Below, one piece after another: positions 7,485 to 19,766 of a DNA stretch of 64,000 bases. A program made the translations under genes and the position numbers. Origin of the DNA: Acidobacteriaceae bacterium (GTDB lineage: Bacteria > Acidobacteriota > Terriglobia > Bryobacterales > Bryobacteraceae); contig JAFAYL010000038.1 of NCBI GenBank assembly GCA_019240405.1, forward strand, positions 1 through 64,000, in the 5' to 3' direction. The first letter of the stretch is position 1; each line of letters opens with the position of its first letter. The notes beneath the pieces are model-generated. The model saw nothing but the letters and a program-made list of their open reading frames with translations, was not told the DNA's origin and made no database searches.

Positions 7485-10400
7485 ATGGATGGGCGTTCGC
7501 TCGCTGCGCTCGCCGTCGCCATCACGGCAGCACCTCTGTTAGAGAGCGCGCGGTTGCCTGTCCGGGCGTACACCACCGCCGATGGGTTAGCGAGCAATCG
7601 TATCAACCGCATCGTCCGCGATTCACGCGGTTTCCTCTGGTTCTGTACTCGCGCGGGTCTTTCGCGGTTCGATGGATACCAGTTCACGAATTTTGGAGCC
7701 GCGCAAGGCTTGCCGGTTCCGGTTTACGACTTACTGGAAACCCGTTCAGGCGAATACTGGATCGCGACGGCTGGCGGCATAGGCCGCCTGAATCCGAAGT
7801 CTTCCGGCCCGCTCTTTGATTTCTCTGTAGCCGCGGACCTGAACGGAACAAGGACTCTCACTCTCGCGGAGGACCAAGCCGGCACGGTCTGGTGCGGCAC
7901 TCATACCGGATTGTGCCGTCTCGCGCCGCCACGGCAAGCGCGTCCTCAGAAAGAGCGCTCCTGGAAGCCGACGATTGTCGATCTCGGCATACCTTCTAAT
8001 TCCGAAGATGGCAATATCCAAACGCTTCATGTGGACCGTAGTGGGACAGTGTGGGCGGGTGGCCAGCAGGGGCTGTACCGGCGCTTGTCCGGAGATCGTT
8101 TTATCCGATACACAGCCGCTAACGGGCTTCCGGACACTCACGTTACTGCACTATTGCAGGATCGAAGCGGGCAAATATGGGCCGGTACCTGGCGCGGCCT
8201 CTGCCGCATCGGGGGCAACTCTGGAAACGGGCACTCCGTCAGAGAGATCGTCAGAGTTGCTACCGGACCGGCTCACACCGGGACTGTGACGGCGCTGGTT
8301 GAGTCCTCGACCGGTGAGTTATGGGTTGGCACCGATACGAAACTCTGCAAATATCTTTTTTCAGGTGATCAAGAAACCTTTGAGAGCTACACAACTGCCA
8401 ACGGCCTGACCCAAAACCAAGCAGACGCGCTTTCGGAGGACCGCGCAGGGAATCTTTGGATAGGCTCGCTAGGCGCCAATAAGATCAGCCGTGGCGGCTT
8501 CATCACCTATGACGAGCGCGACGGCCTCATGTCGAAGTTCGTCGCGTCCGTTTTCGAAGACAAGAGTGGCGAGCTCTGTGTGTTGAACAGACTTCCGGAC
8601 TCGGAGACGCTGAGCAGCTTTAACGGGCATAAATTCGATTCGGTGCGGCCCAACATTCCGCGCTCGATCACCTACTGGGGTTGGGGTGAAAACCAACTGA
8701 CTTTTCAGGATCACGCGGGCGAATGGTGGGTTACAACCGGCAAAGGCATTTTCCATTTCCCGCCTGTTTCGTTTCGGCAACTCAGATCTGTCCGTCCGAA
8801 GGAGGTCTACTGCCGCCGCAATGGTCTGAAGGTAGAGGACGTTTATCGCGTTTTCGAGGATTCGCGCGGTGATGTTTGGATTTCCACGTCTTCGCCCTCT
8901 ATCAACGGGCTCACTCGTTGGGAACGGGCGACCGGAAAACTTCATCCGTATGCGGAGCGCGAAAACATACCATCCCGCGGTCTAGCGCGAGCGTTTGCGG
9001 AAGATCACGCCGGCAACGTTTGGATTGCGTATCCCGCCTTTCTCGCCCGTTACCACCATGGTGAAGCGTACTTCGAACATTTCAAACTGCCAGAGGCGCC
9101 GGAATTCGGCCGAGTTGAGTCTCTGTACGTTGATCACGCCGGCCGTTTATGGCTCGCTTCTGGCGCCGGGGTCGTTCGCATCGACTCACCCGAGGCGGCA
9201 ACGCCACAGCTGATCACCTACACCACTGGCGATGGGCTGGCCGGCAATGCCGCTTTCAGTATCACGGAAGACCGGTGGGGCAGGATCTATATCGCCAATG
9301 AGTACGGAGTCGACTGCTTCTACCCGCAAAGCCCGTTGCACATCAAACATTACAGTGCAAGCGACGGGCTTGTGACAGGAGAATTCTATTCGGCCTTCCG
9401 CGACCATCACGGTTCGCTCTGGTTTGGATCGCCAGAAGGACTCTCGCGCCTAGATCCCCAACCGGATCATTCGTCGCCGGCCCCGCCCGTTTTCATCACC
9501 GGTTTGCGGGTGCGCGGCGTACCCCGTGCTGTTTCAGCGCTCGGTGAAACTGCTCTTTCCGGAATTCAATTTAGTCCCGGCCAGAATCAGCTTCAGGTGG
9601 AATTCGCCGGACTCGGTTTCTCCGTTGGCGAAGTTCTTCACTATCAATACCGGCTCGACGGCGGCGACAGCCAATGGAGCCAGCCGGGTTATCAGCGCAC
9701 TGTGAACTACTCAAGCTTGGCGCCCGGCAGTTACCGCTTTTCGGTCCGCGCGATCACTACCGAGGGACTTGTAAGCACCACGCCAGCTACGCTGGAATTC
9801 ACTATTCTGCCGGCGGTATGGCAAAGCTGGTGGTTTCGCGCGGTTTTGGTGATGATTGCGGCGTCGGCAGTCTATGCGATTTACCGCTTCCGCCTGGCGC
9901 GGCTACTCGAGGTCGAGCGCCTGCGTACACGCATCGCGACAGACCTTCATGACGACATCGGAAGCACGCTCTCCCAAATTGCCATTTTGAGCGAAGTAGC
10001 GCGTCAAGGCAGCACAGCAAACAGACTTGATCCGCTCTCCGATATCGCGCACCTCTCGCGCGAGTCCGTCGAATCCATCAGCGATATTGTTTGGGCAATT
10101 GATCCGGAGCAGGATCGCCTCGGCGACCTCACGAACCGTATGCGGCATTTCGCCAATGATCTCTTCGGTAACAACGGGGTCTCGGTTCAGTTCCGTACCG
10201 GGAGCGGGCAAGAGCACGTTGAGATCGACGCCGCTATGCGGCGACAGATCTTCTTAATTTTCAAGGAGCTGCTTCACAACTGTTTGCGCCATTCGGGCTG
10301 CTCAGTGATCGAGATCGAGTTTTCGGTGAACGCTGGCTGGCTGTCTTTGAAAATTCACGATAACGGCCAGGGTTTCGAGCCCTCAGCAATTGTCAACGGA

Positions 10401-10553
10401 CACGGACTGCGAAGCATGGAAGCGAGAGCCAAACAGCTCGGTGGCTGGATGAGGCTCGATTCCGTTCCAGGCCGCGGAACGCGGGCTGAAATCAATGTCC
10501 CTTTGCGGCCATCTTTCTGGCACCGACGAGCACGGAACTACACAAACGGATAG
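7485..10553 (+). CDS. Two-component sensor histidine kinase with extracytoplasmic double propeller
   Basis: A 1022-residue membrane sensor. After a short hydrophobic N-terminus, about 14 Reg_prop repeats (pattern E-D-x-x-G-x-x-W-x-G-T-x-x-G-L-x-R) cover about residues 30-670, enough for two seven-bladed propellers. A Y_Y_Y-type beta domain follows (about 675-765), then one membrane helix (about 769-790), a HisKA_3 dimerisation domain with the phospho-acceptor His822 (DLHDDIGS), and an HATPase_c domain (N-box ELLHNCLRHS; G-box NGHGLRSMEARA). This is the architecture of periplasmic polysaccharide- or nutrient-sensing kinases. Its response regulator gene follows directly. The dyad just upstream suggests regulated expression. 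Ligand unknown. Confidence 0.93.
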   Translation: MDGRSLAALAVAITAAPLLESARLPVRAYTTADGLASNRINRIVRDSRGFLWFCTRAGLSRFDGYQFTNFGAAQGLPVPVYDLLETRSGEYWIATAGGIGRLNPKSSGPLFDFSVAADLNGTRTLTLAEDQAGTVWCGTHTGLCRLAPPRQARPQKERSWKPTIVDLGIPSNSEDGNIQTLHVDRSGTVWAGGQQGLYRRLSGDRFIRYTAANGLPDTHVTALLQDRSGQIWAGTWRGLCRIGGNSGNGHSVREIVRVATGPAHTGTVTALVESSTGELWVGTDTKLCKYLFSGDQETFESYTTANGLTQNQADALSEDRAGNLWIGSLGANKISRGGFITYDERDGLMSKFVASVFEDKSGELCVLNRLPDSETLSSFNGHKFDSVRPNIPRSITYWGWGENQLTFQDHAGEWWVTTGKGIFHFPPVSFRQLRSVRPKEVYCRRNGLKVEDVYRVFEDSRGDVWISTSSPSINGLTRWERATGKLHPYAERENIPSRGLARAFAEDHAGNVWIAYPAFLARYHHGEAYFEHFKLPEAPEFGRVESLYVDHAGRLWLASGAGVVRIDSPEAATPQLITYTTGDGLAGNAAFSITEDRWGRIYIANEYGVDCFYPQSPLHIKHYSASDGLVTGEFYSAFRDHHGSLWFGSPEGLSRLDPQPDHSSPAPPVFITGLRVRGVPRAVSALGETALSGIQFSPGQNQLQVEFAGLGFSVGEVLHYQYRLDGGDSQWSQPGYQRTVNYSSLAPGSYRFSVRAITTEGLVSTTPATLEFTILPAVWQSWWFRAVLVMIAASAVYAIYRFRLARLLEVERLRTRIATDLHDDIGSTLSQIAILSEVARQGSTANRLDPLSDIAHLSRESVESISDIVWAIDPEQDRLGDLTNRMRHFANDLFGNNGVSVQFRTGSGQEHVEIDAAMRRQIFLIFKELLHNCLRHSGCSVIEIEFSVNAGWLSLKIHDNGQGFEPSAIVNGHGLRSMEARAKQLGGWMRLDSVPGRGTRAEINVPLRPSFWHRRARNYTNG

Positions 10554-10570
10554 GGACGCACTGCCGCTCT

Positions 10571-11230
10571 GTGCCGTATGCTCAAGGGTTGCCCGTGCTC
10601 AAAGTGGCGATTATCGAAGATCAGCCTCGGGTTCGCGAGGGCCTGCAAGCGCTCATCGGCTGCACTGACGGACACCGCTGCACTGGCGCTTTTGCCTCCA
10701 TGGAAGAAGCGCTCGCCGAAATCGACGGCGATCTTCCGGATGTCATCCTGGTGGACCTCGGTCTGCCCCGAATGTCGGGGATTGAGGGTATTGGCGTCCT
10801 CAAGAAGAGATATCCCCACGTTGCGGCAGTGGCGCTCACGGTTTACAACGACGACAAGCGCATCTTTGATGCAATCTGCGCCGGTGCTTCCGGATATCTC
10901 TTGAAGAAGACGGCTCCGGCGCGGCTGTTGGAAAGTTTGCAAGAGGCGGTGGGCGGAGGCGCTCCGATGTCCCCCGAAGTGGCCCGCCGCGTGATCGCGA
11001 TTTTCCGTGAGATCCGCCCCCCCGAGCAAGCCGATTATCACCTAACGCCTCACGAGATTCGCCTGCTGAAGCTGCTGGTGGAGGGCCACAACTATAAGAC
11101 AGCCGCAGCGGAATTGAAGGTGAGCGTAAACACGATCCGCTTTCACATGCGCTGCATTTACGAGAAGCTGCAGGTGCACTCCAAATCAGAAGCGGTTGCC
11201 AAGAGTCTGCGGAAGGGGATTGTTCGCTGA
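10571..11230 (+). CDS. NarL/LuxR-family response regulator
   Basis: A 219-residue DNA-binding response regulator paired with the sensor 17 bases upstream. The receiver domain (about 9-130) has the acidic pocket IIEDQ, phospho-acceptor Asp62 (ILVDLGLPRMSG) and the conserved Lys in YLLKKT. The C-terminal LuxR-type helix-turn-helix (about 155-215) contains LTPHEIRLLKLLVEGHNYK and the recognition helix VSVNTIRFHMR. The GTG at 10571 or the GTG at 10595 (closer to the receiver core) could be the start. The first copy of the 21-bp intergenic motif begins 15 bases after its stop, and four more copies follow within 8 kb, making it the best candidate regulator of those genes. Confidence 0.94.
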   Translation: MPYAQGLPVLKVAIIEDQPRVREGLQALIGCTDGHRCTGAFASMEEALAEIDGDLPDVILVDLGLPRMSGIEGIGVLKKRYPHVAAVALTVYNDDKRIFDAICAGASGYLLKKTAPARLLESLQEAVGGGAPMSPEVARRVIAIFREIRPPEQADYHLTPHEIRLLKLLVEGHNYKTAAAELKVSVNTIRFHMRCIYEKLQVHSKSEAVAKSLRKGIVR

Positions 11231-11245
11231 GCGGTTCGGTTCGAA

Positions 11246-11266
11246 CCTACACATTTGTGCGGTGAC
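11246..11266 (+). promoter_or_regulatory. Conserved 21-bp intergenic motif, copy 1
   Basis: First of five copies of CCTACACA-NN-TRTGCGGTGAC. This copy contains the short palindrome CACATTTGTG and is directly preceded by another palindrome GGTTCGAACC (11238-11247). It lies 15 bases after the response regulator stop and 126 bases before the first GloVer gene start. It could be an operator, promoter element or RNA element; see findings. Confidence 0.7.
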
Positions 11267-11392
11267 GTGGGTGAACAGATCGGATATCAATTTCAAATAG
11301 AAGAACCCCTGTAGCGATCAGGCAATCAAATCACGAAGATCGGCTATGGAAAAGAGTGCTCTGTAATGAGGCTGCAGAATAGGAGACTCAAA

Positions 11393-12673
11393 ATGTTTAC
11401 CGATGATCGTCACAAACAACGGGAGTTCGCCTGGATCTCCTGGAGATATTCGCGTCCCCGAATGACCGCGCTTGCAGCGGTCGTGCTCGTTTCAGCTACG
11501 CTCGCAGGCTCAATCGCTCAAGCGCAGACTGAGACCGTGCTGTACGCCTTCACGGGGGCAACGAGCGGGAGTAACCCCAACTCAGGCTTGGTCCGAGATG
11601 AGGAAGGCAATCTTTATGGGACTGTGTTGAATGGAGGCGCAGGCAGGATCTCCTGCTCTTACTTTGGCCTACCGGGTTGCGGAACGGTCTTCAAGGTCGA
11701 TCCGAGGGGAAACTTGACCGTGCTCCATAATTTCACGTTGGGTGCGGACGGCGCGGGACCTTGGTTGGGCACTTTGATTCGGGACGAGGACGGCAATCTC
11801 TACGGCACCACCTACCTCGGCGGCTTTAACCCGTTTACGAATAGCGGCGCCGTCTTTAAGGTGGACCGGAACGGAAAAGAGACGGTCCTGTACGTGTTCA
11901 AAGGCGGCACAGACGGCGGAGGTCCTTTTGGAGGTCTGACCCGGGACGAGGAGGGCAACCTGTACGGCACAACTAGCTACTCAGGCGCTTTCGGCTACGG
12001 CGTGGTATTCAAGCTGGATCCGTCGGGCAAAGAGACCGTGCTGCATAGCTTCGCCGGGCCGGATGGCTCGGACCCCAGTGCGAGCCTAATTCGCGATAGG
12101 CAAGGAAACCTGTACGGTACTACCTTTTCGGGCGGCGCTAACGGCCTGGGCACGGTATTCAAGCTGGACCCCACAGGCGTCGAAACTGTACTGCACAGCT
12201 TCACCGGAAATCCGGACGGAGCAGATCCCATCGGGGGCGTGATCCGCGGTAAGAACGGTAATTTGTACGGCACTACCAGCCGGGGCGGAGCCTACGGCCA
12301 GGGGACCGTCTTCAAACTGGATCCGGCCGGCAATGAGAGCGTCCTCTACAGCTTCACAGGAAAAGCGGATGGAGGATATCCAGGTGCCAGTGTGATTCGC
12401 GACGAGAAGGGAAATCTGTACGGCACCGCGTTGTTCGGCGGAATCCAAGGTTCCGGAGTGGTTTTCAAGCTGGATCCGAACGGCAAAGAGACTGTTCTTT
12501 ATAGCTTCACTGGCGGTGCAGACGGCGCGAATCCTTACGCGCCCTTGATTCGCGACAGGGAAGGAAACCTATACAGCACAACCAGTTCAGGCGGCGATCT
12601 AAGCGGTACGTGTGCGCCCTCTGGCTGTGGAGTGGTGTTCAAACTCACACCTGCAGGCGGCAAAAGCAATTAG
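11393..12673 (+). CDS. Secreted GloVer tandem-repeat protein (1)
   Basis: A 426-residue protein from ATG 11393, chosen because AGGAG at 11381-11385 is 7 bases upstream; an ATG at 11366 has no such site. A signal peptide precedes about residue 45 (LAAVVLVSATLAGSIAQAQ). The rest is seven repeats of about 45-50 residues with the core GNLYGTT-x-x-GG, then GTVFKLDP-x-G-x-ETVLYSF, and D-G-x-x-P-x-x-x-LIRD. This is the choice-of-anchor GloVer repeat (TIGR03803-like) of acidobacterial secreted proteins, probably a seven-bladed propeller. It is followed after 9 bases by a paralogue. Preceded by motif copy 1. Confidence 0.92.
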   Translation: MFTDDRHKQREFAWISWRYSRPRMTALAAVVLVSATLAGSIAQAQTETVLYAFTGATSGSNPNSGLVRDEEGNLYGTVLNGGAGRISCSYFGLPGCGTVFKVDPRGNLTVLHNFTLGADGAGPWLGTLIRDEDGNLYGTTYLGGFNPFTNSGAVFKVDRNGKETVLYVFKGGTDGGGPFGGLTRDEEGNLYGTTSYSGAFGYGVVFKLDPSGKETVLHSFAGPDGSDPSASLIRDRQGNLYGTTFSGGANGLGTVFKLDPTGVETVLHSFTGNPDGADPIGGVIRGKNGNLYGTTSRGGAYGQGTVFKLDPAGNESVLYSFTGKADGGYPGASVIRDEKGNLYGTALFGGIQGSGVVFKLDPNGKETVLYSFTGGADGANPYAPLIRDREGNLYSTTSSGGDLSGTCAPSGCGVVFKLTPAGGKSN

Positions 12674-12677
12674 GAGG
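12672..12677 (+). promoter_or_regulatory. Ribosome-binding site coupling the two GloVer genes
   Basis: AGGAGG overlaps the TAG stop (12671-12673) of the first GloVer gene and is 5 bases from the ATG of the second. This supports one bicistronic transcript and explains why no 21-bp motif lies between these two genes. Confidence 0.75.
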
Positions 12678-12682
12678 ACAAC

Positions 12683-14062
12683 ATGAAATCCCTGGTGTTT
12701 AGAACAGAACTGCTGTTAGCGCAAATACGGCTACTCGCGTTCACCTTTGGTGTAATTGCCAGTTCCTCAGCGCACGCGCAAGATTATCAGGTCCTCCACG
12801 CCTTCACTGGCGTCGCGGATGGCGCGTGGCCGCTCGACAATCTCATCCGAGATGCGGCAGGCAATCTCTACGGCACAACGCAACTCGGCGGCCAAGGCAA
12901 CGGAGTGGTGTTCAAGTTGGACATCGGCGATACGGAAACTGTGCTGCATAGCTTCACCGGATACCCAAGTGACGGAGCATTACCTGTCGGCAATCTGATT
13001 CGGGATTCCGCAGGGACACTGTACGGGACAACTGCGTTTGGCGGCACATCTGGGTTCGGAACCGTGTTCAAGCTCAACCCGGCCGGTGCTGAAACAGTGC
13101 TGTATAACTTTACGCTTGCGGCTGACGGCAGCCCTTACGCCGGTTTGGTCCGGGACTCTGCTGGTAACCTTTACGGGACCACGAGTTCCGGCGGCATACC
13201 CTGCAACTGCGGCGTCGTGTTCAAGGTGGATACCGCCGGCAACCAGACTGTCCTCTATACGTTCGCGGGCGGAACAGACGGTGGATCTCCGTTTGCGGGT
13301 CTGATCCGAGATACCAAGGGGGACCTCTACGGGACTACATTCTTCGGCGGTGACTTAAGCGCGTGCGGCGGAGTGGGCTGCGGAGTGGTTTTCAAGGTCG
13401 ATCCAAGTGGTAATGAGACTGTCCTCTATAGCTTCAAAGGAGGGAGTGACGGTTTAGAACCCGCAGGGACTCTGGTCCGCGACGCGGCAGGGAATCTCTA
13501 TGGCACCCCTTATGAAGGCGGTTGTTCCGGCGCGGGAACGGTGTTCAAGATTGATACGGCAGGGCACGAGACCATCTTGCACACTTTCGCGGGCGGAAGA
13601 GATGGAGCTAACCCGTACGGCGGCTTGATTCTGGATGCAGAGGGCAACCTGTACGGGACGACCACCTTGGGCGGAATCAGAAGAGCATGTCCCAGCGCCG
13701 ACGGATGCGGAACGGTGTTCAGAGTGGACGCGCGCGGCAGAGAAACCATCCTGCACCGTTTTACGGCCTATAAAGGGGGTGGGTATCCTCAAGCGAGTCT
13801 AATGCTCGATAACAACCACAACCTTTACGGCACAACTTATGCGGGTGGCCCGTTTGACGCCGGAGTCATATTCAAGCTTAAAGTTCACGAGCAATGTGAT
13901 GAGGAATCCGATACGCAGATCGACATCGCTGCCGCTGACGATAATGCACTGCCGGCAACACAGGAGAAACCGGCAGCAGACAGCCGTGCGCTTCGGAGCC
14001 AATGGGATCGCTTTCAAGGCGGACCCTTGTATCGCGTTCCTGCCCTCGGCGCAGTTAAGTAA
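12683..14062 (+). CDS. Secreted GloVer tandem-repeat protein (2)
   Basis: A 459-residue paralogue of the preceding gene, translationally linked to it. It has an N-terminal signal (about 1-33, ending SSSAHAQ) and again seven repeats with the LYGTT core and GVVFKLD / GTVFKVD strands. Two repeats carry extra Cys pairs (PCNCGVVF, ACGGVGCGVVF), which may form disulfides. A non-repetitive charged tail of about 60 residues (HEQCDEESDTQ onward) is absent from the first copy. The pair looks like a tandem duplication followed by divergence. Propeller fold is inferred from repeat number; ligand unknown. Confidence 0.92.
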   Translation: MKSLVFRTELLLAQIRLLAFTFGVIASSSAHAQDYQVLHAFTGVADGAWPLDNLIRDAAGNLYGTTQLGGQGNGVVFKLDIGDTETVLHSFTGYPSDGALPVGNLIRDSAGTLYGTTAFGGTSGFGTVFKLNPAGAETVLYNFTLAADGSPYAGLVRDSAGNLYGTTSSGGIPCNCGVVFKVDTAGNQTVLYTFAGGTDGGSPFAGLIRDTKGDLYGTTFFGGDLSACGGVGCGVVFKVDPSGNETVLYSFKGGSDGLEPAGTLVRDAAGNLYGTPYEGGCSGAGTVFKIDTAGHETILHTFAGGRDGANPYGGLILDAEGNLYGTTTLGGIRRACPSADGCGTVFRVDARGRETILHRFTAYKGGGYPQASLMLDNNHNLYGTTYAGGPFDAGVIFKLKVHEQCDEESDTQIDIAAADDNALPATQEKPAADSRALRSQWDRFQGGPLYRVPALGAVK

Positions 14063-14094
14063 TGCGTAGCAGCGCTGGCGTTTCGACGTAGATA

Positions 14095-14115
14095 CCTACA
14101 CATTTGTGCGGTGAC
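14095..14115 (+). promoter_or_regulatory. Conserved 21-bp intergenic motif, copy 2
   Basis: Identical to copy 1 across all 21 bases. It sits 32 bases after the second GloVer gene and 41 bases before the ATG at 14157, the shortest spacing of the five. It shares with copies 4 and 5 an additional partly conserved downstream stretch (GTCAATTGCTTA here). Confidence 0.7.
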
Positions 14116-14156
14116 ATGCGTGCGTCAATTGCTTACGCTCTCACCAAAGAGACAAT

Positions 14157-16161
14157 ATGCGACCCCCTGTGTTCGTAATCCTATTTGCACTCGCCACATT
14201 TGCCCAGGACGCAATACAGAAGCCGGCGCCCGCGGCGAGTTCCGGCGGTACGGTACCCCGCCTGGTCAGCTTCGGGGGCGTGCTTAAGGACGATGCCGGA
14301 AAGCCGGTCAGTGGTCCCGTTTCCATCACGTTCTCTCTGTTCGCAGAACAGGACGGCGGAACCCCGCTTTGGTCGGAAACGCAAGTAGTCGACGTCGGCC
14401 CGCAGGGCAGGTACGCTATCTTCCTGGGCGCGACGAATCCCAACGGCTTGCCCCTCGACATCTTCGCAAACGGCGCCGCGCGCTGGCTGGCCGTTCAGCC
14501 AGACCCACCCGCTGCGGTCGAGCCCTCGCGCATTTTGCTCGTCGGTGTGCCCTACGCCTTGAAAGCCGCCGATGCCGATACGCTGGGTGGCAAACCGGCC
14601 TCGGCGTTCATGGCCGCACCCGCGCAGTCCGCGCCATCATCCGGCGAGTCGCCGGCCGCCGCGGTTGCTGCCGTCCCCGGCATTACACCAGCGACAACGC
14701 CAACGGGCAGTGGGACCACCGATTACGTCCCGCTCTGGACCAGCAGCACAAATCTAGGCAACTCGATTCTGTTTCAAAGCGGCAGTGTCATGGAAGTGAA
14801 CGGCACGCTCGAATTACCGGCGCTCGGCACCGCGACCGCTTCAACCGGTTACGATTCGCAGCCGTTCGATCTGTTTGCTTCGGCGTACAACAGTTCCAGC
14901 AAGGCTGCCGTTGCGCAGCATTTCCGGTGGCAGGCCGAGCCGGTATCGAACGACACCAGTTCAGCATCGGGGAGAATCGATCTGCTCTATGCTTCCGGTA
15001 CGAGTACGCCTGCTGAGACAGGATTGTCGATCAACCCGCATGGCGTGATCACCTTCGCCTCCGGGCAGACATTTCCAGGCACCGGGCCGGGGACCATCAC
15101 CGGGGTTACAGCCGGAACGGATCTCACCGGCGGCGGCACGAGCGGAAAAGTAACTCTGAATCTCGATACGACGAAAGTCCCGCAGTTGAATGCCTCGAAC
15201 AATTTCACTGGAAATCAGGGTGTGAGCGGCAATATCACGGCCACCGGAACGATTACCGCGTACGACTTCCAAGTGAATAATGTTCTCACAGGCGGTGCCG
15301 GAAATTTCGAAGGCGGCGTCCAGGGTAGCGGCCCCTTTTGGGGCGTTTACGGCTATTCAAACGGCAGCATAGACAGCGCCGGTGTATGGGGCTATCAGGC
15401 GACCTCTTCTAGCACCGGTACCGGCATCTACGGAGAGCTAATTGGCGCGAGCACAGAAGGATCGTCCGTGGGTGGCTCTGCCGGGGTGTGGGGCGACACG
15501 AATCAAACCTCGAGCAGTGCAGTTGTTGGCACGGCCGACGCCGGCTTTGGTGGCGCATTTTACAACAACACTAACAACGGGGATTCTGCTCTTTCGGCGG
15601 AAAACGATTACTCGACACCGTCGCAGGCTCTTGTCTTCTCCGCAGGAGGAAACTCATCTGTGAGCGGGTGGGGGAGTTGCAGCATTGACGGGGCAGGTGA
15701 CCTGACCTGTAGCGGCACCAAGTCGGCTGTGGTTGCGGTCGACAACAATACCCGCAAAGTGGCCCTATACGCGGTCGAAGCCCCCGAAAACTGGTTCGAA
15801 GATTTCGGCTCCGGACACCTTTCCTCCGGCGCAGCGACTATTGCTCTCGAACCGACATTCGCGCAGACCGTGAATACGGGCACGGAGTATCACGTATTCC
15901 TAACGCCAAAGGGTGACTGCAAAGGTCTACGTCTCAAACGAGACGGCGCAGAGCTTCGAGGTTCGCGAGCTGAGCGGCGGAACATCAAGCGTATCGTTCG
16001 ACTACCGAATCGTCGCGAAGCGCAAAGGCTACGAGATCGTCCGCCTGGCGGACAAGACGAAGCAAATCGATGACCAGAGGCTCCGGCGCGAGCAGGCACG
16101 GCACAAGAATCCAGCGAAACCGGCCATTCCGAAACCGCCCTTAACCGCCGCGCTGCATTAG
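14157..16161 (+). CDS. Large secreted repeat/stalk protein, frameshifted near its C-terminus
   Basis: A signal peptide (about 1-16, VFVILFALATFAQ) is followed by a beta-rich region (about 30-140, with PRLVSFGGVLKDDAGKPV and LLVGVPYALKAADADTLGG). A Ser/Thr/Gly-rich body then resembles phage-tail or surface-stalk proteins, with repeated VWGY / GVWGDT glycine motifs. This architecture is frequent in Acidobacteria; function unknown. The first frame runs to 16073, but from about 15927 the sensible sequence continues in another frame (YVSNETAQSFEVREL, then FDYRIVAKRKGYE) to the stop at 16161. Restoring two bases (ggtctac to ggtctctac) gives one protein of about 668 residues. The ATG follows motif copy 2. 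Confidence 0.8.
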
Positions 16162-16198
16162 TAGTCGTCCAGACAAGAGTTTCAACAGGCCGAAAAAA

Positions 16199-16219
16199 CC
16201 TACACATTTATGCGGTGAC
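16199..16219 (+). promoter_or_regulatory. Conserved 21-bp intergenic motif, copy 3
   Basis: Differs from copies 1 and 2 only at the R position (TATGCGG instead of TGTGCGG). It lies 37 bases after the stop at 16161 and 123 bases before the ATG at 16343. Confidence 0.7.
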
Positions 16220-16342
16220 AAGCGACTGCATTTAGGCGGACTCTTCGAAGTGGAACCAATACCCGTAAATCGATGCGGTGAAAATTACGGATTGGCCGCA
16301 TACAACTGGAACAGTTTCAAAAAAGGCGAAAGGAGTTTCCAC

Positions 16343-17554
16343 ATGAAATCGACGCGAAAGGCTTTTATTGACGCAACGCTCACGTCTATCGCCACATGCA
16401 TTTTTTCACTGTGCATCGTGGCAGTACTCACAACTTCAGTTCGGTCGTTCGCGCAAGAGAGCCCAAAGAACGACACCCGTTACGAACCGAAAATCATTGA
16501 ATTCAGCGCTCCGGACGCCGGCACGGTATCCTCGGCCGGGTGCGGTGGCTATTGCGGGACTTTCGCTTATGCCGCGAACGATGGAGGAGTGACTGTGGGT
16601 TACTACACAGACAAAAAGGCCGTTGCCCACGGCTTTCTGCGCAGTCCGGATGGCGACATTACTTCCTTCGACGCTCCCGGAGCCAGCCTAGGGCCCGGGC
16701 AGGGCACATTTGGCTACTCGACCAACGACAAAGGCGCGATCACGGGGGAGTTCGTGGATTCCAAATACGCCGCTCACGGCTTTGTGCGGGAACCCTGCGG
16801 TACCTTCAAAACATTCGACGCTCCCGACGCAGGTACAGGAGCCTACCAGGGCACGGTTCCCCAAGCCATTAACCCGGCGGGCGAGGTGGACGGATTCTAC
16901 ACTGACGGCAATGGTGTGTCTCACGGCTTCCTTCGCACTCCCGACGGTGTAATCACGACCTTCGATGTTCCGAGTGCGGGCACAATTACGATTCCCTTAG
17001 CCATAAACCCGGCCGGGGCGATCACCGGATACTACTTTGACACCAGCAATGTGTATCACGGCTTTCTGCGCACCCCCGACGGCGTTATCACCTCACTTGA
17101 CGCGCCCGGTGCAGGCAGCAACTTTCAGGGCACTTTTGCTCTGGCCATCAACCCGGAAGGGGCCATCACCGGATACGACATTGATGCCGGCAACGTATAT
17201 CACGCATTTCTCCGCGCGCATGACGGCAGCTTCACACTTTTCGAGGCTCCAGGCGCGGGCACGGGCAACGAACAGGGCACCCAGGCCTATTTCCTCAACG
17301 GAGCCGCCACCATTACCGGGTCATACATTGACGCGAATAACGTCTCCCACGGCTTTGTCCGCTATCCGGACGGCGCGCTCGCGACGTTTGATGCTCCGGA
17401 TGCTGGCCATATTGGTGACCAGAACCCTATCCAGGGTACCGATCCTCAGTTCATAAACGCATCCGGCATGATCGCTGGATACTACTTCGATGACAAGAAT
17501 GTGAGTCACGGCTTTCTGCGCACTGCGGATCACCGGTGTTCGCAGAAAGATTGA
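16343..17554 (+). CDS. Secreted HAF-type repeat protein
   Basis: A 403-residue protein from ATG 16343, with AGGAG at 16331-16335 upstream; an in-frame ATG at 16250 has no ribosome-binding site. Signal peptide about 1-37 (CIFSLCIVAVLTTSVRSFAQ). Eight or so repeats follow of the form AINPAGAITGYY-x-D, then NVYHGFLRTPDGVIT-x-x-DAPGAG, the HAF extracellular repeat. It is related to the reverse-strand protein at 1641-2501 but the repeats are more regular here. Probably a surface or secreted propeller. Preceded by motif copy 3. Confidence 0.9.
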   Translation: MKSTRKAFIDATLTSIATCIFSLCIVAVLTTSVRSFAQESPKNDTRYEPKIIEFSAPDAGTVSSAGCGGYCGTFAYAANDGGVTVGYYTDKKAVAHGFLRSPDGDITSFDAPGASLGPGQGTFGYSTNDKGAITGEFVDSKYAAHGFVREPCGTFKTFDAPDAGTGAYQGTVPQAINPAGEVDGFYTDGNGVSHGFLRTPDGVITTFDVPSAGTITIPLAINPAGAITGYYFDTSNVYHGFLRTPDGVITSLDAPGAGSNFQGTFALAINPEGAITGYDIDAGNVYHAFLRAHDGSFTLFEAPGAGTGNEQGTQAYFLNGAATITGSYIDANNVSHGFVRYPDGALATFDAPDAGHIGDQNPIQGTDPQFINASGMIAGYYFDDKNVSHGFLRTADHRCSQKD

Positions 17555-17613
17555 AAAACGGAAACAGCATCAGGGTAAGGGAATAGTTTAACGATGCGTT
17601 CCAGGCCGCTAAA

Positions 17614-17634
17614 CCTACACAAGTATGCGGTGAC
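17614..17634 (+). promoter_or_regulatory. Conserved 21-bp intergenic motif, copy 4
   Basis: Carries AG at the variable pair and TATGCGG, and matches the consensus at all other positions. It is 59 bases after the HAF gene stop and 75 bases before the ATG at 17710. Downstream it shares ATAAATCGCTCA-like sequence with copies 2 and 5. Confidence 0.7.
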
Positions 17635-17709
17635 GGGCGGGCATAAATCGCTCATTCTTCCTATTAAGCAGGAAAACAAGCCTGCTGAAATTCATCAGGA
17701 GAGATTTTT

Positions 17710-18699
17710 ATGAAGAACCTCGGATCTTCCAGGGGGACAGGGAAATCGATCATCGGGATTCTGGCCTTCTTGATCTCCGCGCCAGCGCTGTATAGCGCCG
17801 CCGCAAGCGATCCGCTCATCGACAGCGTCGACGTGAATTACAACGCTAACACCTTGACAATTTCCGGCTCCAACTTGCTCGGATACTACGGTGCCGGTGT
17901 CTTTTCGGTTTCGCTGCCAAATACGAATCTGACGGTGAGCTCCGACTCGCCCACATCGATCGTTGCGAGCTTCCCCGCCGGGCAGCCGCCAAGCAGTTTC
18001 GCGCCTGGAGACTACAGGCTCACCGTGGTGTTCAAGAAAGCGAATGGGACGGCTGATGCAGCAGCGGGACACGAAGCGAATTTCGACGTGACGCTGGGAG
18101 CCGTTGGTCCTGCAGGACCGGCGGGACCCCCAGGGGCGCAAGGGCAGCCAGGAGCACAAGGTCCCGCAGGGCCACCCGGACCAGCAAGGCCGAACCCGTT
18201 GGCTGTTGCTCTTCTGCGCTGGTATCCAGCCAACCAGACGGCGAGCTTTAGTGTCGGAAACGCGCCAGTGGGCATTGTCTTTGACGGTTCCAACGTATGG
18301 GTCGCGAACCTAAATGACAACACTGTTACGAAGCTGCGGGCTAGCGATGGCTCGGTGGTGGGAACGTTTGCTATTGGGGCGGCACCTGGAAGTATTGCCT
18401 TCGACGGCGTCAATATTTGGGTTACCAGCTATGGCAGCAACAACGTCGCGGAGCTGCGGGCCAGCGACGGCACGGTGTTAGGGACGTTTGGCGTCGGAAG
18501 CTACCCGGAGGGGATTGCGTTTGACGGTGTCAACCTTTGGGTCGCGAACGGTCAAAGCAACAACGTTACGGAGCTGCGGGCCAGCGACGGCACGCTGCTA
18601 GGAACGTTTGCCGCCGGAAGCAACCCAGGTAACGTCGCGTTCGATGGCGCGAACATCTGGGTAACGAACCTCCGAAGCAACACCGTGAGCAAGTTGTAA
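17710..18699 (+). CDS. Secreted IPT / collagen-like / propeller-repeat protein
   Basis: A 329-residue protein with a signal peptide (about 1-35), an IPT/TIG-like beta domain (about 38-130), a perfect collagen-like Gly-X-Y tract at residues 133-158 (GPAGPAGPPGAQ and onward), and four 40-residue NHL/YVTN-like blades at about 177-329 (IAFDGVNIWVTS, NNVAELRASDGTVLGTF). The blades are repeated at DNA level with a strict 120-bp period. Four blades are fewer than a closed propeller usually needs, so it may oligomerise (perhaps through the collagen tract) or be shortened by repeat loss. An AGGAG lies about 8 bases before the ATG. Preceded by motif copy 4. Confidence 0.87.
   Translation: MKNLGSSRGTGKSIIGILAFLISAPALYSAAASDPLIDSVDVNYNANTLTISGSNLLGYYGAGVFSVSLPNTNLTVSSDSPTSIVASFPAGQPPSSFAPGDYRLTVVFKKANGTADAAAGHEANFDVTLGAVGPAGPAGPPGAQGQPGAQGPAGPPGPARPNPLAVALLRWYPANQTASFSVGNAPVGIVFDGSNVWVANLNDNTVTKLRASDGSVVGTFAIGAAPGSIAFDGVNIWVTSYGSNNVAELRASDGTVLGTFGVGSYPEGIAFDGVNLWVANGQSNNVTELRASDGTLLGTFAAGSNPGNVAFDGANIWVTNLRSNTVSKL
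18238..18697 (+). repeat. Tandem DNA repeat, 120-bp period, inside the propeller gene
   Basis: Near-identical segments recur exactly every 120 bases; for example GAGCTGCGGGCCAGCGACGG occurs at 18451 and 18571, with a diverged copy at 18331. Each unit encodes one 40-residue blade. High nucleotide identity between the last units indicates recent duplication or gene conversion, and possible copy-number variation. Confidence 0.85.
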
Positions 18700-18801
18700 A
18701 GGCGATTGTCAGGCGGTTGAGAAATAGATGACTCAAGATCCGAGGCAGTCGCCCAAAAGCTCTGCGCAGCCGGATCGTTCCATAATGCCGCCAGCCGCGA
18801 T

Positions 18802-18822
18802 CCTACACAAATGTGCGGTGAC
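18802..18822 (+). promoter_or_regulatory. Conserved 21-bp intergenic motif, copy 5
   Basis: Has AA at the variable pair, giving CACAAATGTG, the exact reverse complement of the CACATTTGTG core in copies 1 and 2. It lies 102 bases after the propeller gene and 134 bases before the ATG at 18957. Its downstream GTGAATCACTTA resembles copies 2 and 4. Confidence 0.7.
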
Positions 18823-18956
18823 GCGCGCGCGTGAATCACTTACTTTGTCAAGCAGAGAGGAAATCACGCCTGCTTGAGTTCTGACGCGATGACTTAGGGA
18901 CTTCGTTATGAAAAGCACATTTGAAGTGCGGAGAAATGGTTCTTAGGAGGTCTAGC

Positions 18957-19655
18957 ATGACACGAATGAAAAAGAATTTGTTGGTTGTTGCCATTCTGGC
19001 AGTTCTCGGCATCGTCGGATCGGCCATGCAGAAGGCTCAACCAGCCGTTGCTAAACCCGCATTACCTAGCATTCCAGTGACAGTGACTAGCCCCCTGCCT
19101 ATGCCTGTCTCCGGAACCCTATCGGCGCAGCAGAGCGGAACGTGGAATGTGGGAATTAATGGGACGCCCAACGTGAACATCGCGAATTCACCCACCGTGA
19201 ATCTCGCTAGCTCCGCTGCTGCGCCGTTCTTCGTCCGGAATGTCGATGATCCCGGCCGAATTCCGTATCAAGCAACCGTAACCGGAACCCCAGTTTGCAG
19301 CAGCAACAACAGTTGCTCCTGGTCTTTTCCCGCGATACTCGCCAATCACCGTCTGGTTCTCGAACACGTATCGGGAATTCTTACTCTTACTCAAGCTCCG
19401 CAAGGTGTTAATGATGCAATCCAAGTGTCAAACGGAAACCAAATCGGCACTTATTTCCCTGTCCCGCCATTTCCGGCGGGAAATACCAACGTTGCGTTTG
19501 ATCAACTGGTGCTGCTCTGGGTCGACGGCGGCACATCGCTCAGCCTTTACCCGATAGGTAACTTCGGGACGAGCCCTCCAGAGGCCGCGATTACCGTGAC
19601 TGGCTATCTTCTCGATTGCTCCGCCGGGCCTTGCGCACCGATTTTCCAGCAATGA
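18957..19655 (+). CDS. Secreted protein of unknown function
   Basis: A 232-residue protein from ATG 18957, with a perfect AGGAGG at 18945-18950. The N-terminus has a Lys-rich start and a hydrophobic helix (about 6-20, LLVVAILAVLGIVGSAM), so it is exported or anchored. The body is beta-rich and Pro/Ser/Asn-rich with short repeats (VTVTSPLPMPVSG, GTPNVNIANSPTVNLA) and two Cys pairs (CSSNNSC near the middle; CSAGPC at the C-terminus) suited to disulfides. No family recognised. It is the last member of the motif-fronted set; no copy of the motif follows it. Confidence 0.82.
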   Translation: MTRMKKNLLVVAILAVLGIVGSAMQKAQPAVAKPALPSIPVTVTSPLPMPVSGTLSAQQSGTWNVGINGTPNVNIANSPTVNLASSAAAPFFVRNVDDPGRIPYQATVTGTPVCSSNNSCSWSFPAILANHRLVLEHVSGILTLTQAPQGVNDAIQVSNGNQIGTYFPVPPFPAGNTNVAFDQLVLLWVDGGTSLSLYPIGNFGTSPPEAAITVTGYLLDCSAGPCAPIFQQ

Positions 19656-19766
19656 TCGACTCTGCCCGGCGTAATCGGCTGGCGCTTCTCGTGTGACTCG
19701 ATTTCATGCTGCCGTTTTAGACGAAGCCGAAGGAGTAATGAATCCGCGATCCGATAGCATGAAATC

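Follow-up and report, generated by a model that had tools for sequence, protein, structure and literature searches.

NarL-type response regulators bind inverted repeats of 7-2-7 geometry, and the region around -42.5 is where activators contact RNA polymerase. In the polysaccharide-utilisation hybrid systems of Bacteroides, a periplasmic sensor of propeller and Y_Y_Y type is encoded beside the genes under its control. In these hybrids, as far as the account in PMC11253607 extends, sensor kinase and regulator are combined in a single protein. At the E. coli yeaR and ogt promoters, a 7-2-7 site for NarL abuts the -35 element or lies just upstream of it, and a single NarL site is described as enough for activation at yeaR (PMC7419079, in the portion on these promoters). 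The ogt1052 promoter has been presented as NarL/NarP-dependent, though not nitrate-coupled, in the corresponding portions of PMC9314961 and PMC7419079. For the IclR and GntR families, operator letters have been compared with the DNA-binding domain family-wide (PMC8222616, PMC4494728), and these accounts, in the parts that bear on co-evolution, deal with protein families other than two-component regulators.

The locus described here lies in a window of 64,000 nucleotides (the whole stretch of acidobacterial DNA that was analysed) and shares with yeaR and ogt the NarL-family regulator, the 7-2-7 inverted repeat and the placement of the site at the -35 element, while its kinase resembles the Bacteroides hybrids in the propeller/Y_Y_Y sensor (Table 1). 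It differs from yeaR and ogt in that the operators have other letters, a propeller/Y_Y_Y kinase takes the place of NarX/NarQ, the targets are probable exported repeat proteins, and the sites found lie in one cluster instead of serving a global regulon; it differs from the Bacteroides hybrids in that the kinase and the NarL-type regulator have a gene each. As a NarL 7-2-7 site beside the -35 has already been described, only the regulon is new and not the mechanism, and to that extent the "undescribed regulon" of an earlier note on this DNA holds. The regulon family is thus new, and its kind is known from NarL at yeaR and ogt.

Table 1. Two-component system, operators, predicted promoters (from sequence) and target genes of the locus, in window coordinates.
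Feature	Coordinates	Strand	Description
Sensor histidine kinase	7485..10553	+	1022 aa; Reg_prop 3e-45, Y_Y_Y 3e-11, HisKA_3 2e-7, HATPase_c 2e-11 (Pfam)
NarL-type response regulator	10571..11230	+	219 aa; Pfam Response_reg and GerE
Operator 1	11247..11262	+	CTACACA-TT-TGTGCGG; upstream of GloVer gene pair
Promoter 1	11262..11290	+	-35 GTGACG 11262-11267, 17-bp spacer, -10 TATCAA 11285-11290
Target 1a	11393..12673	+	GloVer repeat protein; NCBIfam TIGR03803 1e-107; export judged by eye
Target 1b	12683..14062	+	Second GloVer repeat protein; TIGR03803 9e-103
Operator 2	14096..14111	+	CTACACA-TT-TGTGCGG; upstream of stalk-like protein gene
Promoter 2	14111..14139	+	-35 GTGACA, 17 bp, -10 TACGCT 14134-14139
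Target 2	14157..16073	+	Stalk-like protein, 638 aa; export judged by eye
Operator 3	16200..16215	+	CTACACA-TT-TATGCGG, 4/7 pairs; upstream of HAF-repeat gene
Promoter 3	16215..16243	+	-35 GTGACA, 17 bp, -10 GGACTC 16238-16243; poorest of the five -10 candidates
Target 3	16343..17554	+	HAF-repeat protein; TIGR02913 1e-7; export judged by eye
Operator 4	17615..17630	+	CTACACA-AG-TATGCGG, 4/7 pairs; upstream of collagen/propeller gene
Promoter 4	17630..17658	+	-35 GTGACG, 17 bp, -10 CATTCT 17653-17658
Target 4	17710..18699	+	Short collagen-like stretch and beta-propeller repeats; TIGR02276; Collagen under its cut-off; export judged by eye
Operator 5	18803..18818	+	CTACACA-AA-TGTGCGG; upstream of last exported-protein gene
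Promoter 5	18818..18846	+	-35 GTGACG, 17 bp, -10 TACTTT 18841-18846
Target 5	18957..19655	+	232-aa protein; export judged by eye

The window kinase carries all four of its domains in one protein, which is the propeller/Y_Y_Y sensor kinase architecture. The regulator is assigned to the NarL/FixJ type, with Response_reg (9e-21) and GerE (9e-12) both over their cut-offs; its best match in the PDB is NarL (1a04), and its recognition helix reads TIRFHMRC, with residue 188 as the first. Since its score with the NCBIfam NarL equivalog is 115 bits and the cut-off is 250, it is to be regarded as NarL-like and not as NarL itself.

The five copies of the 21-mer begin at 11246, 14095, 16199, 17614 and 18802, all on the + strand and exactly where they had been placed; they vary at positions 9, 10 and 12 and agree at the other 18 of 21. 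Each is intergenic, as claimed, and they end 126, 41, 123, 75 and 134 bases before the start codon with the best ribosome-binding-site score of the gene that follows. Copy 1 begins 15 bases past the stop codon of the regulator gene; neither between the two GloVer genes nor after the last gene of the cluster has a copy been found, again in agreement with the earlier description. Target 1b begins 9 bases after target 1a, without an operator of its own. An alternative start of target 1a lies at 11366, 27 bases earlier.

Bases 2-17 of the 21-mer form the 7-2-7 inverted repeat CTACACA-NN-TRTGCGG, and the palindrome proposed for copies 1, 2 and 5 is borne out with five of seven pairs matching, compared with four in copies 3 and 4. 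A -35 element is suggested by GTGAC at bases 17-21, which starts on the last base of the repeat, and a weak -10-like hexamer, poor in copy 3, is predicted 17 bp further on, which puts the centre of the repeat 30 bp before the -10 hexamer, that is at about -42.5 from the predicted start. Because the 21-mer ends in what resembles a -35 element, operator and promoter are best read as one unit; the assignment to the adjacent two-component system is supported by the linkage in other genera and the moderate correlation of letters with helix described below, while the treatment of operator and promoter as alternatives falls with the -35 overlap.

We consider it likely that each copy is an activator operator joined to a promoter, and that the NarL-type regulator, phosphorylated by the kinase, would activate five promoters for probable exported proteins. 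The propeller/Y_Y_Y part of the kinase would face the periplasm, where it may meet a ligand; the kinase would then phosphorylate the adjacent regulator, a dimer of which would bind the repeat and bring RNA polymerase to five promoters that are weak by themselves, whereby a local regulon of exported repeat proteins would be switched on. The same regulator and operator could also act in the opposite sense, the bound protein blocking RNA polymerase at the -35 until a signal arrives. Such repression fits the last operator base, which also belongs to the -35 element, and E. coli NarL acts as activator and as repressor, as described in the relevant part of PMC4549865. We nevertheless hold it to be rather unlikely, as all five window promoters go unreported in a generic sigma-70 scan, which is expected if they are activator-dependent, and as the 30 bp from centre to -10 falls between the 29 bp of CRP class II and the 32 bp of NarL at ogt1052 (distances as given in portions of PMC9314961 and PMC7419079).

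The earlier note had also entertained a cis-acting RNA, a special sigma factor and a dispersed repeat, all three of which are now disfavoured. An RNA element in leader transcripts would suit five intergenic copies with the genes behind them all in the same orientation, and copies 4 and 5 are followed further downstream by a possible AGCAG...CTGCT hairpin. However, arms with a two-base loop cannot fold into a hairpin, and the predicted -10 comes after the motif, which would therefore be outside the transcript; a search of 10500-19700 with Rfam 15 gave two chance-level matches inside genes, and the gathering score was reached by none, which leaves an RNA element scarcely credible.

Copies 2, 4 and 5 have the additional downstream likeness that had been claimed, with bases in common in the promoter spacer and the -10 region, and copies 4 and 5, the most alike, further share AAGCAG...GCCTGCT beyond the -10 region. 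Promoter segments may therefore have been copied within the cluster, and this likeness would equally suit a functionless dispersed or duplicated repeat that spread together with the downstream genes. That the copies are nothing else is highly improbable, as the genes behind them belong to different families or to none (Pfam and NCBIfam at E 0.001 gave zero matches for targets 2 and 5), in other genera the motif adjoins regulators of this kind, and the source genome (4.45 Mb, 63 contigs, 96% complete) holds the 21-mer at up to three mismatches in these five places and nowhere else, so that the genome-wide scatter looked for at this threshold has not been found. At the same threshold, a backwards control pattern gave one match in the source genome, and the 21-mer gave 0.01 matches in the shuffled window.

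The expected proximity of motif matches to homologues of the kinase-regulator pair in other genera is supported. In the genome collection, the single exact match lies 194 bp past a relative of the regulator, and the 236 family relatives gave three one-mismatch matches, two of them 26 and 424 bp past such a relative and the third 4.8 kb from one, on the opposite strand. Counting the window's own, eight regulators reach 70% identity or more, and each is followed by a site no further than 60 bp from its end; seven of these sites are window-type, with 4 mismatches at most, and one has letters of its own.

For a wider set, 116 regulator genes were counted after nearby split matches had been merged and L199 had been dropped, which apparently is the same contig as L009, with identical sequence after the regulator. 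A lenient first rule gave a small excess (at least 22 sites, where the opposite strand has 12 and a shuffle has 13.3), and a strict layout rule, set after this result, gave 19 sites at 17 genes, compared with 0 each for opposite strand, reversed and complemented controls and a mean of 0.175 over 200 shuffles. The 55 genes fetched after the strict rule had been fixed contribute 11 of the 19 sites, at 9 genes, with none on the opposite strand or reversed and 0.095 per shuffle. The rule is passed by only three of the five window copies, and for 99 of the 116 genes the 350 bp searched contain no strict site. Over the 116 genes, the commonest GTGAC offset is that of the window (13, next 3) and the commonest spacer length is 17 (13, next 2); all seven repeat pairs match in L041, L050, L051 and L065. 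Reg_prop, Y_Y_Y, HisKA_3 and HATPase_c were found by Pfam in 10/10 kinases of relatives scanned, HATPase_c of L057 being under its cut-off; of 12 kinases chosen, L040 and L185 were omitted for a short upstream reading frame. Pfam on these ten was used because tblastn picked up the propeller part in only 13/90; within 1.2 kb of the regulator, tblastn found no kinase core at 26/116 regulators, 5 of these at a contig edge.

Regulator relatives occur in 38/396 genomes of a phylum-wide sample (E up to 1e-66), and an order-level search (E up to 1e-70; 20 further genomes searched) gave family members only among the matches listed. The relaxed pattern CCTAYMYANNYRTGYGGTGAC at up to two mismatches gave 39 matches, against 33 for the control, in 23 of 36 regulator-bearing genomes; as the control comes near the real count, such places have been used only where the layout scan agrees. 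Exact CCTAYMYANNYRTGYGGTGAC matches lie at regulator loci in 12/12 cases, a linkage that is not independent, since five of them belong to the window and sites at these very loci had served to write the pattern. At 4-5 mismatches, the window pattern gave 16 matches and the control 15. Matches to two paralogous operators fall on contigs of their own regulators: both L047-type matches in G160 lie on the contig of its regulator, and the nine L057-type matches in G128 (six distinct places) all lie on two contigs with its regulator or a partial copy. Against linkage, G128 has a window-type site (L122) on a 4.6-kb contig where no regulator matched, and one L051-type match in G103, with 3 mismatches, may speak against privacy.

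The operator letters differ among paralogous regulators, while G[T/C]GAC stays. Among 26 pairs chosen by hand, usually with the site near the regulator gene, though 3.9 kb from it in L181, operator distance is correlated with helix distance when the rest of the regulator is controlled for (partial Mantel r 0.37, p 0.0006), residues 190 and 195, then 189, showing the strongest correlation. The value is r 0.29 (p 0.009) for the 18 strict palindromes, r 0.22 (p 0.02) for 35 pairs with nine omitted ones restored (L160, L171, L172, L175, L187, L195, L198, L063 and the second L064 regulator), and r 0.27 (p 0.11) for the small set of nine second-set pairs alone; in the dereplicated sets of 9 and 4 pairs, which are too small, it is not significant. 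The L123 copy and the isolated layout hits L043:2315, L044:9133 and L070:3126 were likewise left unused. The correlation is moderate and hinges on which pairs enter. It bears on the reading of the 21-mer as a promoter for a special sigma factor with an incidental palindrome: GTGAC, 17 bp and a -10-like hexamer do look like a promoter, with GTGAC one of the stretches that vary least, yet it is the palindrome letters that vary by paralogue and correlate with the recognition helix, and the -10 letters look like ordinary TAnnnT. We regard a special sigma factor as very unlikely and return to the activator operator joined to a promoter.

In the relatives, some genes behind the sites are without an evident signal peptide by eye (e.g., L040:5387, L043:9277, L057:9297 and L082), and a switch of the same kind also fronts di-haem cytochromes (DHOR), so that the circuits would control varied functions. 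To our knowledge, no operators have been mapped for relatives of the window regulator. We give an even chance to the wider reading that Acidobacteriota hold many insulated kinase-regulator circuits with private operators in a fixed layout, in which each propeller/Y_Y_Y kinase with its NarL-type regulator would drive only neighbouring genes, mostly for exported proteins; the letters would be set mainly by helix residues 190 and 195 (NarL 188 and 193 by alignment), and regulators of a deeper branch, with helix R[NDSK][YH], would recognise sites like GCATGNNCATGC. A recognisable operator-promoter makes each such locus a testable regulon and allows start sites and regulated genes to be predicted before any expression data are at hand. 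As related regulators have switches that are alike in kind and differ in letters, the matching of regulator to switch has become testable, and the natural helix-operator pairs are material for how NarL-type regulators change specificity.

A 21-bp motif in five intergenic copies before genes for exported-type proteins had been claimed in the earlier note, and this has been borne out. CCTACACANNTRTGCGGTGAC matches the window in five places and in no others at up to three mismatches (0.01 expected), and its own genome (4.45 Mb, 63 contigs, 96% complete) has no such match outside them; read backwards, the motif has given one match there at the same threshold. All copies are intergenic and lie on the + strand, each in front of a single gene or a pair of genes encoding proteins with N-termini that look exported as judged by eye.

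Motif copies in the window, the units behind them and associated features
Feature	Position	-10-like hexamer	Unit behind or gene product
Kinase gene	7485-10553 (+)		propeller-repeat sensor kinase
Regulator gene	10571-11230 (+)		NarL-type response regulator
Copy 1	11246 (+)	TATCAA	two GloVer-repeat proteins (TIGR03803)
Copy 2	14095 (+)	TACGCT	638-aa protein without family
Copy 3	16199 (+)	GGACTC (poor)	HAF-repeat protein (TIGR02913)
Copy 4	17614 (+)	CATTCT	collagen-like/propeller protein
AAGCAG...GCCTGCT, copy 4	17653-17700
Copy 5	18802 (+)	TACTTT	232-aa protein without family
AAGCAG...GCCTGCT, copy 5	18841-18890

Two parts of the motif have been told apart by aligning these sites with those of relatives. 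The first, bases 2-17, is a 7-2-7 inverted repeat, CTACACA-NN-TRTGCGG, with 5/7 matching pairs in each of copies 1, 2 and 5 and 4/7 in copies 3 and 4; the perfect form, CCGCACA-CT-TGTGCGG, occurs in the relative L041. Bases 17-21, GTGAC, fit a -35 element, and 17 bp after GTGACN a -10-like hexamer follows. As the 30 bp from the repeat centre to this hexamer fall between the 29 bp of an Escherichia coli CRP class II site at -41.5 and the 32 bp of the ogt1052 NarL site at -44.5 (excerpts of PMC9314961), the centre would lie near -42.5. A generic sigma-70 scan has reported none of the five window promoters. AAGCAG...GCCTGCT, which is common to copies 4 and 5 beyond the -10 region, may be a leader hairpin or the trace of a segment duplication.

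Copy 1 begins 15 bases after a gene for a NarL-type response regulator (Response_reg and GerE), whose best solved-structure match is NarL, 1a04; upstream of this gene lies that of a kinase combining propeller repeats with Y_Y_Y, HisKA_3 and HATPase_c. In NarL, 7-2-7 sites are bound by a dimer of the output domain (excerpts of PMC4549865). In the best-supported account, the neighbouring regulator would activate the five window promoters, its main rival being that this regulator represses them instead. Precedents for activation with a 7-2-7 site near -35 are found in E. coli, where one site just upstream of -35 is enough at yeaR and one abuts the -35 at ogt (excerpts of PMC7419079). Activation by the adjacent regulator is a mechanism of known kind; among the open-licence papers listed, none deals with operators of propeller/Y_Y_Y kinase systems in Acidobacteriota, and none on GloVer or HAF-repeat proteins bears on such regulation.

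The suggested scan of related genomes has given one-mismatch matches in 3 of the 236 other genomes of the family and an additional exact match in JACPPM010000036.1, from a metagenome-assembled genome of Acidobacteria. Three of the four follow a relative of the window regulator by 26, 424 and 194 bp, and the remaining one (genome G157) lies 4.8 kb from such a relative on the other strand. Regulator relatives are present in at least 36 of 237 family genomes (E <=1e-60) and at least 38 of 396 phylum-wide genomes (E <=1e-66), with the own genome counted and the best 7-12 candidates per genome scored. Over the first 41 loci, among them the motif-found L009, the motif has given 14 matches versus 0 backwards at up to three mismatches, and 16 versus 15 at four to five. 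Each of the eight regulators that share at least 70% identity with the window's (own included) is followed within 60 bp by a site; seven of these sites are of window type (that of L042 has four mismatches), and the site of L047 has other letters. A kinase core like the window's has been detected by tblastn within 1.2 kb upstream of 90/116 regulators and not in this interval for 26, five of them at a contig edge; all ten kinases scanned from 12 chosen loci carry the four kinase domains, HATPase_c of L057 scoring below cut-off. Exported-looking products stand behind sites in relatives too, and several genes behind sites have no evident signal peptide (both by eye). Pfam searches covering L042, L045 and L065 have identified di-haem DHOR cytochromes behind the sites of all three, L065 having a different operator; a di-haem cytochrome or the same N-terminus directly follows the operator in L042, L044, L045, L064 and L066 (window-type) and L065 (other type).

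Other relatives keep the layout with changed palindrome letters, among them CTACCTG-TA-CAGGTAG (L051), CCACCTG-TT-CAGGTGG (L050), CTACCTA-CA-TAGGTGG (L057), CCGTCTG-TA-CAGATGG (L047), CCCCCAA-CT-TTGGGGG (L065) and CTACTTA-CA-CAAGTAG (L183). A lenient layout rule has shown little excess over controls. The strict rule (>=5/7 pairs, an in-register G[T/C]GAC and a -10 score at a 17-bp spacing), scanned over 350 bp before and after each of 116 regulator genes, has found 19 sites at 17 genes, versus 0 on the opposite strand, 0 reversed, 0 complemented and, over 200 shuffles, an average of 0.175 with never more than 2; it covers a minority, since 99/116 genes have no strict site in these flanks. The layout had been derived from the first 61 genes, and the 55 fetched later have yielded 11 sites at 9 genes versus 0 opposite, 0 reversed and 0.095 per shuffle. 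Across the 116 genes, the G[T/C]GAC offset from the palindrome takes the window's value 13 times (next 3) and the TAnnnT spacer is 17 bp in 13 cases (next 2); a related rule on whole loci of the first set has given 21 sites versus 3 reversed. In seven more distant relatives (L163, L165, L159, L170, L173, L183, L185) a strict site ~67-153 bases before the regulator gene suggests autoregulation, of which the window has no sign. At L057:9297 and L123:12558 GTCAC precedes the operator, and as GTGAC-like sequence thus flanks the palindrome on both sides, it might serve a divergent promoter.

In a deeper branch of ~50%-identical regulators with helix R[NDSK][YH], RCATRNNYATGY lies within 350 bp in 14/21, versus 11/95 other regulators and 0/116 in reversed sequence, a lead rather than a test because the pattern was picked after examples had been viewed. 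GCATGNNCATGC-like palindromes stand on both gene sides in 8/14 of these regulators having a site (L085, L090, L200, L203, L204, L206, L207, L208), which suggests autoregulation there.

Recognition-helix distance has been found to correlate with operator distance with the effect of the rest of the protein partialled out (partial Mantel r 0.37, p 0.0006, 26 chosen regulator-site pairs). Residues 190 and 195 give the strongest signal (p 0.0005 each), followed by 189 (p 0.0035); the former two align with NarL 188 and 193 in the numbering of the structure match, and in NarL the base-contacting residues include K188, V189 and K192. Among regulators with S or C at 195, right half-site position 3 is T in 10/10 (2/11 with R or H) and position 5 is C in 9/10 (1/11), counts inflated by an S/C group that is mostly one close clade. 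Strict palindromes alone give r 0.29 (p 0.009, 18 pairs), restoring nine omitted pairs r 0.22 (p 0.02, 35 pairs) and the second-set pairs by themselves r 0.27 (p 0.11, 9 pairs), and dereplicated sets of 9 and 4 pairs are not significant; the correlation is likely real, if not settled, and weakens with other pair choices.

The operators may be largely private to their regulators. All five window-type matches in the own genome lie inside the cluster, and both L047-type matches in genome G160 lie on its regulator's contig. In G128 the L057 type has nine matches at six distinct places, the palindrome often scoring once per strand; all lie on the two contigs that carry the L057 regulator or its partial copy, and G160 has no matches; of two L051-type matches in G103 one is on the regulator's contig and the other (three mismatches) on a different one, with no matches in G277. 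Against full privacy stands a window-type site, L122 (G128:C199:666), on a 4.6-kb contig without regulator match that is too short to decide. As this site fronts an exported-looking protein resembling one behind L043:8880, the target family is possibly conserved. The G128 locus has a second copy, L123:12558-13041, with unchanged operators; the regulator match there stops at the recognition helix, and the copy may be a duplicate in decay. G128 carries more than one operator type, as does G160, and every type stands beside its own regulator, as expected of insulated circuits.
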